This document shows, in pieces, positions 22,300-27,820 of a stretch of 29,554 nucleotides of DNA. How positions within the stretch are numbered: position 1 is the first letter of the stretch; the number at the start of each line of letters is the position of its first letter. The notes under the pieces are model-generated. The model was not told the origin of the DNA. It made no database searches and saw nothing but the letters and a program-made list of their open reading frames with translations. The DNA is from a virus: positions 1-29,554 of IMG/VR virus record IMGVR_UViG_3300043803_000660. One strand, written 5' to 3'. Position numbers and translations under genes: made by a program.

Positions 22300-22676
22300 G
22301 CAGCACCTCCTCTCGGCGAGCAAATCCCTAGCCGCCACTTGCTGACCTTGCTGCTGGTGCATTCGGGTGCCTCAGCACGACGCTCGGCCATGTGCTTCTC
22401 ACGCTCGATCTTGGCTCGCTCGGCAACCCACGGCGACAGTGCCAGGCCGCTCTGCGATGCGGCCTCGTCCTCCTCAGACGGTGCCTCATACTCTGGCGTG
22501 CCCAGTGGCGGCCTCGGCGGCAGCTTGTACCGCTGTGCCCACTTCGACACGGTGCTTTGGCAGACGCCCATGCGTCGGCCAATCTCGCCAGCCGACAGGC
22601 CCTGCGACCACAGCTGATGAAGCAGTGCCACGTCGGCACGGCTGTGCGAACTGACGTACTGGTTGCCAGGGATCAT
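22296..22676 (-). CDS. Helix-turn-helix protein
   Basis: A 126-aa protein from ATG 22676 (ATGA-coupled to dnaN). Residues 15-50 (ADVALLHQLWSQGLSAGEIGRRMGVCQSTVSKWAQRYKL) form a resolvase/GcrA-like helix-turn-helix: a first helix, G-L-S-A-G-E-I-G-R-R-M-G, then the recognition helix QSTVSKWA. The rest is a charged helix (PWVAERAKIEREKHMAERRAEAPE). It probably binds phage DNA and controls early or middle transcription or replication. Family uncertain beyond the fold. Confidence 0.75.
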   Translation of the reverse strand: MIPGNQYVSSHSRADVALLHQLWSQGLSAGEIGRRMGVCQSTVSKWAQRYKLPPRPPLGTPEYEAPSEEDEAASQSGLALSPWVAERAKIEREKHMAERRAEAPECTSSKVSKWRLGICSPRGGAA

Positions 22677-23776
22677 GCGTCCTCCGCCAGCGGCATGATG
22701 ACGCCGCGGTACTCGCCGCACGACAGCGTGACGGCACCGGCAGGCCCGGTCGCATGAATCGAGACGTTCGGCTCCTCGTCGGCCGGCAGCCCCTGCAGGT
22801 AGTCACGCACGAAGGCCGGGTCCAGCTTGACCTTGCACGCCGTCCCGGCCTGCACCACCGAGCACTTCGCCTTCGACTCGCCGTACTCGCTCGAGCGGGC
22901 CGTAAGCGTCAGCGTCTCGCCGAAGTCGTACGTAACGCCCTTGCTCTGCTCGCTGGCCACGACGGCCGCAGCCCTGGTCGCCGACAGCAGCTCCTCGCGC
23001 TCCACGACGTGCGGCTCAGTGCTGGCCTCGGGGAACACGTCACGCCACCGTGGGAAGCGGCCGTCCACGATGCGAGCCGTGAGCACGCCGCCGTCGAACG
23101 TGAACACCACGTCCGACTTGGTCGCCTCGATCTGCACCGAGCCCTCGCTGCGTTCGCTGAGCGTGGCAGCGATGCGAGCCGCAGCGGCCGGCACGAGCGT
23201 CGTCGAGTCGTCCACCGCCTGGTCCGTCTCCGTCTGCACCGCCGACAGCCGCCGGCCGTCAGTGCCAACGAACGTCGGATCTCCACCCGTCACGTCGATG
23301 AGCACCGCACCCAGGGCGTAGCGGCTGGACTCGCTGTCCGTGGCGTACGACACGGCCCTGATCGCCCGCACGAACTGATCCGCCGGCAGGCGGCAGACGG
23401 GCGTGGCGTCCACGGGCTCCCACGTCGGGTACTCGGCCACGTCCTCAGTGGGGAGATCCCACTTTCCCCGGCCGCACTTGATCGTGACGGTGCTGCCCTT
23501 CGGGGTGAGCGTCACGTCGTCGTCGTGCCGGCAGGCCCGCAGGATCGCCGTCAGCCTGTCGGCCGGCAGCAGCATCGGCTCGCACTGCTCGCCGATCTCA
23601 CGGTCGATGCGGATCTCAAGATCCGTGCCCGTGATGAGCCCGTCGCCGATGCGGACGTTCCGCAAAATCGGCTTCGGGCCGCGCGAGCTCACCGCCCTAG
23701 TCACGTCACTGAGTGCCGCCAGCAGCGTGCCGGCTCCTATCGTCAGCCCCGCCCGTTCCTTCGTTGCCGTAGCCAT
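22673..23776 (-). CDS. dnaN: DNA polymerase III beta sliding clamp
   Basis: A 367-aa protein from ATG 23776 behind AAAGGA, the same length as bacterial clamps. Three repeating domains can be followed: residues 10-125 (GAGTLLAALSDVTRAVSSRGPKPILRNVRI..LITGTDLEIRI), 135-250 (LPADQFVRAIRAVSYATDSESSRYALGAVLID..FVGTDGRRLSAV) and 250-367 (VEREELLSATRAAAVVASEQSKGVTYDF), ending in EYRGVIMPLAEDA as in DnaN. The ring holds the replicative polymerase on DNA. A phage copy implies that it either uses a host polymerase with its own clamp or encodes a polymerase outside the window. Confidence 0.93.
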   Translation of the reverse strand: MATATKERAGLTIGAGTLLAALSDVTRAVSSRGPKPILRNVRIGDGLITGTDLEIRIDREIGEQCEPMLLPADRLTAILRACRHDDDVTLTPKGSTVTIKCGRGKWDLPTEDVAEYPTWEPVDATPVCRLPADQFVRAIRAVSYATDSESSRYALGAVLIDVTGGDPTFVGTDGRRLSAVQTETDQAVDDSTTLVPAAAARIAATLSERSEGSVQIEATKSDVVFTFDGGVLTARIVDGRFPRWRDVFPEASTEPHVVEREELLSATRAAAVVASEQSKGVTYDFGETLTLTARSSEYGESKAKCSVVQAGTACKVKLDPAFVRDYLQGLPADEEPNVSIHATGPAGAVTLSCGEYRGVIMPLAEDA

Positions 23777-23885: not shown

Positions 23886-24151
23886 AGTGCGGCCCCCGCA
23901 TCGCTGTCGTCGTCCTCGAGCAGCGGCCACTTCGCCTGGCTGGACGCCTCGGCGTGCTCGTAGGCAACCGCCTGCTGCACGAGCCGAGTCTGCAGCTGCA
24001 GCACCAGGTCGGCAGTCTCCAGCAGCAACGCTGCCCCGAAGTTGAGGCGGGCCCGGCTGGCTCCGTCGCTGGCCTTGGTCACGGCGGCCTGCGCCATCGC
24101 ATCGGCGTAGATCCGCAGGCTGGCCACGATCTCGTGCGGACGCATGCTCAT
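23882..24151 (-). CDS. Small helical protein
   Basis: An 89-aa protein from ATG 24151 (ATGA overlap). It reads MSMRPHEIVASLRIYADAMAQAAVTKASDGASRARLNFGAALLLETADLVLQLQTRLVQQ with an acidic end LLEDDDSDAGAAL. Long amphipathic helices, no enzyme motif. Function unknown; it may be an accessory of the neighbouring replication proteins. Confidence 0.55.
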   Translation of the reverse strand: MSMRPHEIVASLRIYADAMAQAAVTKASDGASRARLNFGAALLLETADLVLQLQTRLVQQAVAYEHAEASSQAKWPLLEDDDSDAGAAL

Positions 24152-24369
24152 GACACCACCTCGATGTTGCGGGGCTTGCCCGGCGTGCGTCGGATAAATC
24201 CCTTTCGCTCCAGGGCGTCGAGATGCACCGTGGCGGCGTGCGGCGACTTCGCCCCGATGGCCGAGGCGATCTGCCTCACGGTCGGCGAGTACAAACTCAT
24301 GTTTGCCCGAATGAAATCCAGCACTTCTTGCTGGCGAGCGGTGAGCCGCTCCTTGGCGGTCTGCGTCAT
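24148..24369 (-). CDS. Stand-alone LexA-type DNA-binding domain
   Basis: A 73-aa protein from ATG 24369 (ATGA overlap). LTARQQEVLDFIRANMSLYSPTVRQIASAIGAKSPHAATVHLDALERKGFIRRTPGKPRNIEV reads as the LexA N-terminal winged helix from end to end: the L-T-x-R-Q-x-E-V-L start, recognition helix SPHAATVHLDALE, and the wing RKGFIRRTPGKPR. The LexA self-cleaving Ser/Lys domain (about 120 residues) is missing, so this repressor could not be inactivated by RecA. It may block SOS genes of the host or control phage genes without induction. Confidence 0.8.
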   Translation of the reverse strand: MTQTAKERLTARQQEVLDFIRANMSLYSPTVRQIASAIGAKSPHAATVHLDALERKGFIRRTPGKPRNIEVVS

Positions 24370-25223
24370 AGATCCTCCTCCTTGAGTTTCAGAGTCGATG
24401 CAAGCGCGGCGACTTCGGCGGGCCGCCGGTACGGGGCCGGTGCCATTCGTGCGAACTCGGCCGCCTTGCGATCCAGGGCCGCCTTTCGCTCCACGTCCTC
24501 GGGGCGCTTGCCGGTCTCTCGGTTCGTGCCGCCCTTGTCCTGGCACTTCGACAGCCAACGCACGACAAACGCACGCCAGTTGCGTCGGCCCGCCCGGCTC
24601 GGGTTCGCCTTCAGCCAGGCCGTTGCCTTGGCGAGCTCCTGGGCGAGCACGGCACCCGGGTACGCCTCGGCCCACTCCCGTCGGTCTGCGTCCGTGATGC
24701 CGGTCCACCCGGCTTCAGCCGTCCACGCCACCTTCGGCTTCGCCGGCGTGCGAGACGCCTTCGGCGGATCGCTCGTCGGAACCGGCGCAGCCGGTTGTAT
24801 CTCTCTCTTCTCCTCTCCTGTCTTCTCTTCTCCTGTATGTAGTCCGATTTTTTCTGGACATTTTTCGGACAAACCTCGGACAGCCCTCTGGGACGACTTG
24901 CGCCGGGCGTCTTCCAGCCTGGCTTTTGCAGCCTTAGAGAACCGCTTCTCCCAGCCCTCGATGACGATGGTGCCGTTCAAAAACGTCACCCAGCCGACTC
25001 GCTCAACAGCGAGCCAGAACGCTTCGTCACCTCCCGCCACGGCAGCGACACGCCTGGGCGTTGCCCTGATCGTGCCGTCCGACGAGTTGAGGGCAGCCCA
25101 TGACCACAACTGGATGAGACGCCAGCAGACTGCCTCGACGGGCAGCCCGGTGTCGTCCACCAGCTCGAGCACCTCGGGCTTGGTGCCGAGGTTGCAGTCA
25201 AGGGGAATCCATTCACCGGCCAT
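24366..25223 (-). CDS. Replication initiation-like protein (DnaD/DnaT-type layout)
   Basis: A 285-aa protein from ATG 25223, with AAGGAGG seven bases upstream. Residues 1-100 form a winged helix (GTKPEVLELVDDTGLPVEAVCWRLIQLWSWAALNSSDG..FWLAVERVGWV). A Lys/Pro/Glu-rich linker (about 120-180) follows, then ITDADRREWAEAYPGAVLAQELAKATAWLKANPSRAGRRNWRAFVVRWLSKCQDK, the small C-terminal domain with W-L-x-x-N-P-x-R..N-W-x-x-F that ends many phage replication proteins. It probably loads helicase at the phage origin. Neighbouring LexA-like, dnaN and GHKL genes fit a replication block. Confidence 0.65.
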   Translation of the reverse strand: MAGEWIPLDCNLGTKPEVLELVDDTGLPVEAVCWRLIQLWSWAALNSSDGTIRATPRRVAAVAGGDEAFWLAVERVGWVTFLNGTIVIEGWEKRFSKAAKARLEDARRKSSQRAVRGLSEKCPEKIGLHTGEEKTGEEKREIQPAAPVPTSDPPKASRTPAKPKVAWTAEAGWTGITDADRREWAEAYPGAVLAQELAKATAWLKANPSRAGRRNWRAFVVRWLSKCQDKGGTNRETGKRPEDVERKAALDRKAAEFARMAPAPYRRPAEVAALASTLKLKEEDL

Positions 25224-25234
25224 CCGTGGCCTCC

Positions 25235-26695
25235 TTACTTCGCCTTCGGGTTCCACTGAGCCAGCAAATTGTCGAGCGTCTTCAGCACGCGCTCCGACGG
25301 CTTCGCAGACTGATCGATCAAAAAATCAAGCGGCGTCTTCGGGTCGTCCTCGTGCCGAAGCACTAGGCCGCTAGCAACGGCGAACATCGACATGCTGTCA
25401 CGCAAGGCGCCGCCGTCTCGGCCGGCGTGGTAGCCGCGCCAGATCGGACTCTGCCCGCCGAAAATGACTGTGGCTGCTTTCTCGCCAAGCCTGCATTCCG
25501 GGACCGCCTCGGACTTGACGGGGTCGATTTGGACATTCAAGTCGTATCCTCGCTTCTTGCGAGGCTTTGCCTTCAGAGCCCCTCCTTCGTCAATGACGGC
25601 ATTTCCGTTGCCATTGCCGCCGCTGCCATCCCCCTTGGTGTCGCCATGGCCGACAACGTCGCCTTCGCCTTGCGACGCAGCAGTATCGCCATCAGTGGCG
25701 GTCGTCATGTCGCCTTGATCGTCGGACTTAGGCGGCTTCGGCAGGGGAATGGTGATGACGTGATTAGGCGTGTAGGGCTTCAGCATGTCCGCAAAAATCT
25801 CGGCCACCTTCCGGCACACGGACGATTTCTCGTGCAAACTGTCCTTGTGCTTTGTGACGCGAAACCACGTTTGCCGGTCGTCCTTGTCTTCCATCAACGT
25901 GACTTCGGCGTAGAACTGAGAAACGTCGTAACTCTCAAGGCCGGCGCGTTCTCCGGAACACAGAACGCGCAGAGGCAGCTTGATCGTCACGCCAGAACTC
26001 ACGTTGTCCTGGCCTAGAGACAGGATGCCACCACGAACGCGGAATCGCTTACCGTCAACTTCCGCTTCCAGCTCGCGAACAGAACGGAACTTCGGGCGAT
26101 CGGCAGGGGCAAGAGACGTTCCGTTAATTGTGATAGTGATGCCTTCACGCAAGGCATCAACGTAGAGCTTCTCCAGTTCCGTCCGTAACCGACTGATTGA
26201 CGAGTTGCTCAGCGGGAAGTCAACGCGGGCGACCGTGACCACAGTGCCGGACTGTGCGGTCGTTTTGAACGCTCGCTCCGTGACCTCCCACTTGCCTCGA
26301 CGAATCATCACGTCTGTGTCGGCCACAGAAACAGTCTTTCGGCCGTCACGTACGGTCACGATCTTGATGACTTCGCCAAGCCTCCAGCCGGCGTCCTTCA
26401 GCCCAACGCCGTAGCGGGACGAGCCTTGCTCGTCGCCATGCTCGATGTGCCGTCCAGGCTGAAACGCCATGGCCGCGCTGTGCATGCCGCACCCGTCATC
26501 GGTGACAGTGATGGTGCGAGTGTCTCCTTCAATAACGATGTCGATGCTGCGAGCCTTGGCTCCGATACAGTTGTCGATCAACTCGCCAAAGCACGACAGC
26601 GCAGTCATGCCGGAAGCCCGGTACGAATGCAGTTGATAAGTCGTCGGCGTAACGTCGATGCGGCGCGGGTGCCGCTTACCAGTTCTTGTCCCCAC
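25235..26695 (-). CDS. GHKL-family ATPase with C-terminal extension
   Basis: A 486-aa protein if started at GTG 26695, six bases after AGGAGA; a TTG at 26728 is a weaker option. ATP-site motifs in order (486-aa numbering): N box FGELIDNCIGA (E38, N42), G1 VTDDGCGM (66-71), G2 SRYGVGLKDAG (95-100), G3 SGTVV (near 150). This is the Bergerat fold of Hsp90, MutL, gyrase B and MORC proteins. A Ser/Ala-type second domain (to about 270) is followed by a charged region, a Gly/Asp/Asn-rich linker (near 350-385) and a C-terminal domain (RGYDLNVQIDPVKS to LDNLLAQW). No kinase or gyrase parts. It follows the ParB-like gene by 10 bases. Confidence 0.75.
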   Translation of the reverse strand: MGTRTGKRHPRRIDVTPTTYQLHSYRASGMTALSCFGELIDNCIGAKARSIDIVIEGDTRTITVTDDGCGMHSAAMAFQPGRHIEHGDEQGSSRYGVGLKDAGWRLGEVIKIVTVRDGRKTVSVADTDVMIRRGKWEVTERAFKTTAQSGTVVTVARVDFPLSNSSISRLRTELEKLYVDALREGITITINGTSLAPADRPKFRSVRELEAEVDGKRFRVRGGILSLGQDNVSSGVTIKLPLRVLCSGERAGLESYDVSQFYAEVTLMEDKDDRQTWFRVTKHKDSLHEKSSVCRKVAEIFADMLKPYTPNHVITIPLPKPPKSDDQGDMTTATDGDTAASQGEGDVVGHGDTKGDGSGGNGNGNAVIDEGGALKAKPRKKRGYDLNVQIDPVKSEAVPECRLGEKAATVIFGGQSPIWRGYHAGRDGGALRDSMSMFAVASGLVLRHEDDPKTPLDFLIDQSAKPSERVLKTLDNLLAQWNPKAK

Positions 26696-26705
26696 GGTAT
26701 CTCTC

Positions 26706-27500
26706 CTATTGGGTTTTGGCTCTTTCAATCCAAGTCGTCAGTTCATCCACGATTTGCTTCTTGGAGATCCGGTCGCACGCAAGCAGCTCTTGCAGTAAAA
26801 GCCGGAGGTCATCAAGCAAGTCTCGGGCTGGACGTGTCTTTTTCTTTGCTGGCTTGCTTGCCGGCTTTGGCTTTGCTGGCACTTGCTTCACCGCATCACG
26901 CAACTTTTTCTTTCCGGCGATCACGTCTTTCTGCACCTGCTCGGGTATCACGCCAGCCTCGACGGCCTGGTCGAGCTTTACCGCCTGCTTCGCCTTGTGG
27001 AGCGATACGCCGGCCTTGGCCGCCACCTTGCCGGCTGTGGATGCGGCCTGCTTCTCTTTTTCGTCTCCCTTTTTCCGTGGGGACGATTTCGTCCCCACGG
27101 GCTTTTCGGTTCCCTTCTTGAGCCCAGCCGCCTGCCGCTCCTTCGCCTCCTTCCGAAGGATGCGGTTGATGGCGGCTGTCGCGGTTGCGTATGCGTCCTC
27201 GGACAGATGCCTGCGGTCGAGATTCTGTGCGGCCACCCACTCCGTAGCTGATAGTCCGCACTTGCTGTCCCACTCAACGCAGGGCAAATCAACCTTGTGG
27301 CCTTCGCCGCGAAGTTTCATCACGGCCCGCAAGCGATTGCGGCCGTCAAGCACCTGGCCCTTGTGCGAGACGATTGGATTCTGGACGCCGTGCTCTGCGA
27401 TGCTGTCAACCAGCGACTGGAAGCGATCGCCTTCAAGCAGCGGAAAAACGCTTGCCGCTGGATGAATCACGTAGTCGCAGATCTTTTCCTGTTGCGCCAT
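26706..27500 (-). CDS. ParB-like nuclease-domain protein
   Basis: A 264-aa protein from ATG 27500 (TGATG overlap). The N-terminal ParB/Srx-type domain contains FPLLEGDRFQSLVDSIAEHGVQNPIVSHKGQVLDGRNRLRAVMKL, with the G-x-V-L-D-G-R-N-R motif and the E-H-G-Q-N-P-I start. A helix-turn-helix stretch follows (LDRRHLSEDAYATATAAINRI, then TAGKVAAKAGVSLHKAKQAVKLDQAV), and a Lys/Ala-rich tail ends in ELLACDRISKKQIVDELTTWIE. Phage ParB-like proteins may bind DNA, cleave DNA or hydrolyse CTP. Pairing with a GHKL ATPase is notable. Confidence 0.82.
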   Translation of the reverse strand: MAQQEKICDYVIHPAASVFPLLEGDRFQSLVDSIAEHGVQNPIVSHKGQVLDGRNRLRAVMKLRGEGHKVDLPCVEWDSKCGLSATEWVAAQNLDRRHLSEDAYATATAAINRILRKEAKERQAAGLKKGTEKPVGTKSSPRKKGDEKEKQAASTAGKVAAKAGVSLHKAKQAVKLDQAVEAGVIPEQVQKDVIAGKKKLRDAVKQVPAKPKPASKPAKKKTRPARDLLDDLRLLLQELLACDRISKKQIVDELTTWIERAKTQ

Positions 27501-27820
27501 CACGCCATCCTCCACACGCTCGCCATCCGCCCGCTCGTCGTCCGCCTGGTGCCGCACTCCACGACGAGCCCAGCCCGTGCCAGTTCGCCACGACGTGGCC
27601 GTTGCGTGTTGGGGTTCATGCCAAGCTTGTGCTGCATCTCCTCGTCGGTGAGTCCCTGCGGCCACGCCGCCAGGAGCTCGAGCACCCGCCGCTGCATGGC
27701 GTTCAGCGTCGCCGGGCTGAGCGAGTCGGCCGCTGCGGCCGAAGTAATCGTGCCGTTTGACGGGGCACGCTGCGTGAACAGCGGGCCAGCCGTGGCGTCT
27801 TCGATGCCGTAGTGGTTCAT
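27500..27820 (-). CDS. Winged-helix protein
   Basis: A 106-aa protein from ATG 27820 behind AAAGGA. The C-terminal two thirds, LNAMQRRVLELLAAWPQGLTDEEMQHKLGMNPNTQRPRRGELARAGLVVECGTRRTTSGRMASVWRM, is a standard phage winged helix: helix 1, 'G-L-T-D-E-E-M', the recognition helix NPNTQRPRRGELARAG and a wing ending in S-V-W. It likely binds DNA, as an excision or replication accessory or regulator. The first 30 residues are Ala/Ser-rich and disordered. Confidence 0.75.
   Translation of the reverse strand: MNHYGIEDATAGPLFTQRAPSNGTITSAAAADSLSPATLNAMQRRVLELLAAWPQGLTDEEMQHKLGMNPNTQRPRRGELARAGLVVECGTRRTTSGRMASVWRMA

Follow-up and report, generated by a model that had tools for sequence, protein, structure and literature searches.

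MORC ATPases have been studied as DNA-compacting silencers in animals and plants, and their relatives in bacteria have been described in restriction operons. To our knowledge, no partner of ParB had come from the GHKL class of ATPases. MORC2 clamps and compacts DNA (PMC12216690), and topological entrapment of DNA has been described for MORC-1 of C. elegans (PMC8277788). SMC is recruited by ParB at parS near origins (PMC7333895). In the literature searched, which lies mostly outside the subscription journals, we found no paper on a phage pair of ParB and a GHKL/MORC protein.

The window analyzed here, 29,554 bp long, covers a whole virus record of IMG/VR. It carries a ParB-like gene directly followed by a gene for a GHKL ATPase, in the following setting.

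27500..27820, minus strand: small winged-helix-like protein (phrog_1123), directly upstream of the pair, left border of a variable slot
26706..27500, minus strand: ParB-like protein, 264 aa, ATG start, with a ParB N-domain, a linker, an HTH domain, and a C-terminal helical hairpin
26696..26705, minus strand: 10-bp intergenic gap between the ParB-like gene and the ATPase gene, of equal length in the homologous locus L132
25235..26695, minus strand: GHKL (MORC-like) ATPase, 486 aa, GTG start
24366..25223 (from the MAGEW start), minus strand: replication initiation protein (phrog_2509, 5e-20), directly downstream of the ATPase gene

An in-frame TTG at 26728 would be an alternative start for the ATPase and give a protein of 497 aa that overlaps parB. 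The GTG start is favored because the closest homolog, L132, likewise begins after a 10-bp gap. A preliminary description of this DNA had reported a ParB-like gene, a gap of 10 bases, and a 486-aa GHKL ATPase with intact N, G1, G2, and G3 motifs, and the coordinates, the Pfam match and the alignment confirm it. Its placement of the pair in the replication region is borne out by the neighbors, which are the initiator, a LexA DNA-binding domain, a beta clamp, and a RecT gene (Pfam/PHROGs annotation). The LexA domain (24148-24357) comes without the protease half and is a small phage regulator, with the initiator on one side and the beta clamp on the other. The clamp is a phage-encoded DNA polymerase III beta sliding clamp (22673-23776; phrog_947, 5.5e-56). 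No ParA adjoins the ParB-like gene of the window, and its neighbor is the GHKL ATPase. The operon partners that mark R-M MORC/paraMORC loci, namely a methylase, an SFII/Z1 helicase, or a nuclease, were not found for the window pair.

The ATPase is divided as follows.

26218..26668, minus strand: GHKL ATP-binding domain, about aa 10-160, carrying the N, G1, G2, and G3 motifs
25766..26217, minus strand: S5-like transducer region, about aa 160-310, with the conserved K284 (from the alignment and from strands and helices of the model)
25556..25744, minus strand: Gly/Asp/Asn-rich linker, about aa 318-380, predicted to be disordered (pLDDT < 50 at 310-386)
25238..25549, minus strand: C-terminal domain, about aa 383-486, from a low-confidence model, probably of MORC/paraMORC type

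The protein matches Pfam HATPase_c_3 (E=1e-14) and its motifs are all intact: the N box E38-xx-D41-N42, G1 D66-G-x-G70, G2 G96-V-G98, and G3 T151. These residues, together with K284 as the candidate S5-domain lysine, are invariant or nearly so among 12 aligned relatives, and the gene is under strong purifying selection (dN/dS 0.04-0.27). The family profile finds MORC2 first among PDB entries (7.5e-12), then MORC4 and MORC3, and then MutL. Foldseek with the window model, which is well modeled at residues 1-230 only, also ranks MORC2/3/4 first. Likeness to MORC in profile and fold thus exceeds likeness to MutL, gyrase, and Hsp90, with a model that is of low confidence outside residues 1-230. The MORC S5 motif GhXhhpXXRhl is matched strictly in nine family members, and the window protein has only a degenerate form, GVTIKLPLRVL. 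The preliminary description had placed an unknown C-terminal domain behind the linker. The linker is indeed predicted to be disordered. The low-confidence model of the domain shows three strands and helices, and the LN..[HN]P motif that the relatives have there also occurs in restriction-linked MORCs, so the domain is probably the usual one found at the C terminus of MORC/paraMORC proteins. An ordinary phage family was looked for as the identity of the ATPase, and PHROGs returned only families of 'unknown function'. A MutL-like repair protein was rejected: the score is 35 bits against an equivalog cut-off of 180 bits, the similarity is confined to the core, and the endonuclease or MutS partner of such a protein was not found. 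A topoisomerase subunit was also rejected, with no Toprim or GyrA partner noted.

Relatives were collected by scanning viral contigs with patterns built around G2 of the ATPase; neighboring genes played no part in these scans. Scans of IMG/VR and GTDB contigs with patterns from a single protein or from two rows had given nothing useful or unrelated GHKLs only. One phage polyvalent protein of 3,166 aa (L112:2404-11904) carries a GHKL ATPase domain about 40% along its length. The family comprises 14 loci (the window, Bobby, L132, L133, L152, L153, L166, L167, and L170-L175; L168 is a duplicate of L167), and the phage ATPases in the pair are 440-490 aa long. The first homolog found was gp96 of Mycobacterium phage Bobby (E 2e-10), and the ParB-like gp95 lies 3 bp upstream of it. 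In a maximum-likelihood tree, all 14 phage ATPases form a single clade (support 97/93) apart from 39 restriction-type proteins. The G2 motif of every member of the phage clade reads GVG[LMA]K-D, a private GVGxKD motif, whereas restriction-type proteins and all 24 readable bacterial matches have K-T, K-S, or another residue. Readable matches in Pseudomonadota and Bacteroidota genomes carry only the restriction-type K[TS], plus one K-G, and no ParB is found near the matches in these genomes.

By the ParB profile, 10 of the family loci have a ParB-like gene immediately upstream of the ATPase gene and one has it downstream. Because L167 and L170-L174 are closely related, these 11 loci represent about five lineages. 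Most of the pairs overlap by ATGA, and in L166 the gene order is swapped and the adjacency kept. In L133, L152, and L153 a small protein without a Pfam match takes the place of ParB and precedes the ATPase with a 4-bp overlap. The same profile found an adjacent ParB in 0 of 43 restriction-type MORC loci, some of which have only 1.5 kb of flank; two weak matches among them (E 0.005 and 0.05) were not accepted as adjacent ParBs. A replication-initiation-type gene comes right after the ATPase in five loci (the window, L133, L152, L170, and L172), and other loci have DnaB-type or RepA-type helicase, Sak4-like, or RecT-like genes nearby. The preliminary description had asked for a neighborhood survey and would have yielded to one in which the two genes were rarely adjacent. 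The survey found a ParB-like neighbor in 11 of the 14 loci, which rules against chance pairing. That two accessory genes lie side by side by coincidence is very improbable, and we reject it. ParB-fold genes do occupy the slot in relatives that have no ATPase, but the adjacency is repeated in five separate lineages, holds in L166 with the order swapped, is accompanied by shared tails (see below), and is missing from all 43 control loci.

The ParB assignment of the partner is weak by Pfam (ParB_N 0.045). PHROGs makes it firm, with matches to phrog_21315 (7e-12) and to phrog_4715, annotated 'ParB-like' (7e-11). The family profile finds Spo0J (4.7e-6) and Noc (2.1e-5) in the PDB, where no family other than Spo0J, Noc, and ParB reaches significance, and Foldseek returns Spo0J/ParB/Noc/KorB. 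In the model of the window protein (pLDDT 77.6), a ParB N-domain and an HTH domain are followed by a helical hairpin at the C terminus, and the protein thus has the combination of ParB N-domain and HTH expected of ParB in ParABS. The earlier idea of a GHKL clamp joined to a ParB clamp is supported by the family membership of both proteins, MORC for one and Spo0J/Noc for the other. Among the CTPase motifs, G-x-x-R is kept and ENLQR has become QNLDR in the window protein or something similar in its relatives. Because the catalytic glutamate position of this P-motif is occupied by another residue in every aligned relative, CTP switching is possibly absent; switching and hydrolysis may be lost or altered, or another NTP may be used.

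Our main reading, to which we give a probability of about 0.5, is that the pair forms a phage-specific two-protein DNA-handling module, in which the ParB-type protein would be an adaptor that guides a MORC-type ATP-gated clamp onto phage DNA close to the origin. It is favored because MORCs clamp and compact DNA and because ParB brings SMC to origins. The HTH of the ParB-like protein would recognize phage DNA, perhaps at a palindrome that lies within the ParB-like gene, and the C-terminal helical tail of the protein would dock on the ATPase. With ATP, the ATPase would dimerize as an N-gate clamp around phage DNA, as MORC and MutL do. Loaded at or near the origin, such a DNA-entrapping clamp would allow replicating phage genomes to be organized, initiated on, or separated, in analogy to the ParB-parS loading of SMC with a MORC instead of SMC. 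The data show that the genes are adjacent, which families they belong to, that the motifs are intact, that selection acts on them, and that they move together; the interaction, the DNA target, the clamp loading, and the benefit for replication or DNA organization are what we infer. A more specific version is possible and we advance it tentatively: a MORC-type ATPase would have replaced ParA/SMC, the palindrome in the adaptor's own gene would nucleate the adaptor, the ATP-gated GHKL clamp would be loaded on phage DNA, and front ends, either ParB or another domain, would have been swapped with the docking tail kept.

The part of the partner that may face the ATPase is the following.

26709..26828, minus strand: predicted two-helix tail of the ParB-like protein (codons 225-264), on which the ATPase may dock

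In the model of the window protein, the tail helices are predicted at residues 225-241 and 247-263. L175 and L152 have orthologous ATPases (44% identity over 461 columns) whose partners differ in front, with unrelated domains there, one partner being a ParB and the other not. These two partners align over 48 residues of their C-terminal parts at 35% identity; comparing just the two sequences gives E 5e-6, and shuffling gives z 9.7. Since orthologous ATPases keep unlike fronts and homologous tails, the tail appears to be the constant part that faces the ATPase and the front end an exchangeable part that reads DNA. Tail homology is moderate between L152 and L133 and between the window and L133 (shuffle z 3.3), and the shuffle test detects none among the remaining partners. 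Docking through the tail would extend to the window ParB-like protein less firmly than to the partners in L175 and L152.

A candidate DNA target lies within the ParB-like gene itself.

27075..27100, no strand assigned: perfect 26-bp palindrome, CCGTGGGGACGA-2nt-TCGTCCCCACGG, located in the stretch of the ParB-like gene that encodes the linker from the ParB domain to the HTH

It is the strongest palindrome in the record (0.05 expected). The palindrome of L132 (4565-4592), at the equal position of the gene, differs by two compensatory changes and is broken at one point. A wider scan covered ParB-like genes that have a motif of the RR[HN]L type, with the linker taken as the 20-48 codons after the motif. 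A linker palindrome scoring at least 8 was found in 12 of 21 such genes, which are partly non-independent, versus 2 of 162 other sequence windows (p = 6e-8). The reading frame relative to the palindrome varies between genes, which argues for a constraint on the nucleic acid. Palindromes were also seen at L166:6732-6759, L170:3981-4005, L171:4464-4490, and L173:3210-3236, and in the parB-like genes of L005, L006, L131, L176, L178, L180, L181, L194, and L199. Such long palindromes are frequent in ParB-like genes of phages and of bacterial genomes; they lie about 27-40 codons past RR[HN]L, have arms that differ, and are apparently general. A half-site resembling one arm with one mismatch (26686-26696) is found where the ATPase gene begins and is insignificant alone. 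RNA folding of the palindrome is favorable (z -1.5 to -3.7), which makes an RNA hairpin a candidate; the spacers of 0-4 bases also fit a dimeric DNA site. The simplest reading is a parS-like candidate site for the protein's own HTH. Because ParB-like genes without a paired ATPase carry one too, the palindrome is a feature of phage-type ParB genes generally. The last point bears on a role in expression control, in which the ParB-like protein would be an autorepressor acting at the intragenic palindrome and the MORC-like ATPase would spread silencing across the early operon. Many phage ParB-like genes do have such a palindrome, and eukaryotic MORCs silence genes, but a site that is not specific to ATPase-paired ParBs and not promoter-proximal makes transcriptional silencing improbable.

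Phages with and without the pair can be compared directly. In Bobby, gp93-97 are a five-gene, 3.47-kb insertion between gp92 and gp98, and the two genes of the pair move together within it. The sister phages Dove and ThreeRngTarjay have an empty site, where the left flank is about 97% identical and the right flank 94%. Close relatives of the window phage, with terminases 71-95% identical, do not have the pair, and other genes occupy the slot bordered by the phrog_1123 gene and the initiator (L093, L096, L098, L101, L102, and L106). The slot of one relative contains a different ParB-fold protein with no ATPase and that of another contains a methylase gene. This hypervariable slot can hold unknown genes, a methylase together with a small gene, or a ParB-like protein. 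The GC content of the window pair is 0.58-0.59 versus 0.65-0.69 in its surroundings. Since relatives carry other genes in the slot and the pair has a lower GC content than its surroundings, the module is accessory and is gained and lost. It is not essential for replication, since close terminase relatives do without it. When the host was sought by terminase, the best genome match had just 40% identity.

This patchy distribution suits counter-defense, which would be the main rival to clamp loading and is a serious alternative, although we consider it rather doubtful. In the manner proposed for T4 rIIA/rIIB, the pair would either keep host nucleases off phage DNA or use dead heterodimers to poison the host's MORC-containing restriction systems. 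Host relatives of the ATPase sit mostly in restriction and MZA-like defense operons, T4 has the GHKL ATPase rIIA together with rIIB, whose first part is an HTH, and rIIA orthologs have been described as poorly understood counter-defense (PMC7824862). However, the catalytic motifs are intact and conserved rather than decoy-like, the place among replication genes is fixed in unrelated phages, and the family profile has no significant match to T4 rIIA (hhalign 20%, hmmsearch E 0.02). Phage-borne defense or superinfection exclusion is less likely, as is the silencing discussed above. Here a minimal MORC system would act against rival phages, with ParB as its recognition or nuclease part. MORC homologs do sit in defense operons, the gain in Bobby is cassette-like, and certain ParB-fold proteins are nucleases (PMC5512222). 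Unlike restriction-type MORC loci, though, the pair has no conserved nuclease, helicase, or methylase beside it, and its position inside the replication module, mostly right upstream of the initiator, also makes a defensive role unlikely.

If the main reading, a ParB-type adaptor guiding a MORC-type clamp, is right, the ATPase would be, as far as we know, the first GHKL-class protein to partner a ParB. A ParB-fold adaptor with a minimal MORC-like ATPase would then be a simple model for guided MORC loading and for how MORCs choose DNA. Bobby is a culturable mycobacteriophage that has the pair, and its natural sister phages without it provide an ideal comparison. The parts are of known kinds; their combination is new to us, as are the MORC-like clade specific to phages and the apparently exchangeable adaptor.

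Of the described systems, MZA has in MzaB a protein with weak similarity in the GHKL domain (NCBIfam 1.5e-8, PADLOC 2.2e-6), but the window ATPase scores 33.5 bits, far under the curated cut-off of 850 bits, and the window has no MZA partners, so membership was rejected. T4 rIIA/rIIB are likewise neighboring phage genes for a GHKL ATPase and an HTH protein. No full-length homology is detectable beyond the GHKL core, however; rIIB has no ParB domain, and rIIA is 725 aa long. The preliminary description had known of no standard phage module with this pair. That stands for ParB with GHKL, of which we found no described case, but has to be qualified by T4 rIIA/rIIB as a known pair of GHKL and HTH proteins. 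Orphan and phage proteins of the ParB-CTPase fold (2025 survey, PMC12704722) share a ParB fold outside parAB and a link to mobile elements; the main text of that survey mentions neither GHKL nor HATPase. ParABS/Noc and the ParB loading of SMC are alike in the ParB N-domain and HTH, in the best matches (Spo0J, Noc, and ParB-CTP), and in a palindromic candidate site. The window protein differs from ParABS in having a GHKL partner instead of a ParA neighbor, a helical-hairpin tail, and a P-motif in which the catalytic glutamate is not kept. MORC/paraMORC proteins (Iyer et al., 2008; PMC2292703) share the GHKL plus S5-type module with four ATP motifs, in nine phage members the strict S5 motif GhXhhpXXRhl, and the C-terminal LN..HP motif, and MORC2/3/4 are the nearest solved structures. 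The phage ATPases differ in forming their own clade (97/93) and in having GVGxKD where MORC/paraMORC has GLGLK[TS]. In place of a methylase, a Z1/SFII helicase, or a nuclease, their partners are ParB-like or other small adaptors, and they reside in the replication region.
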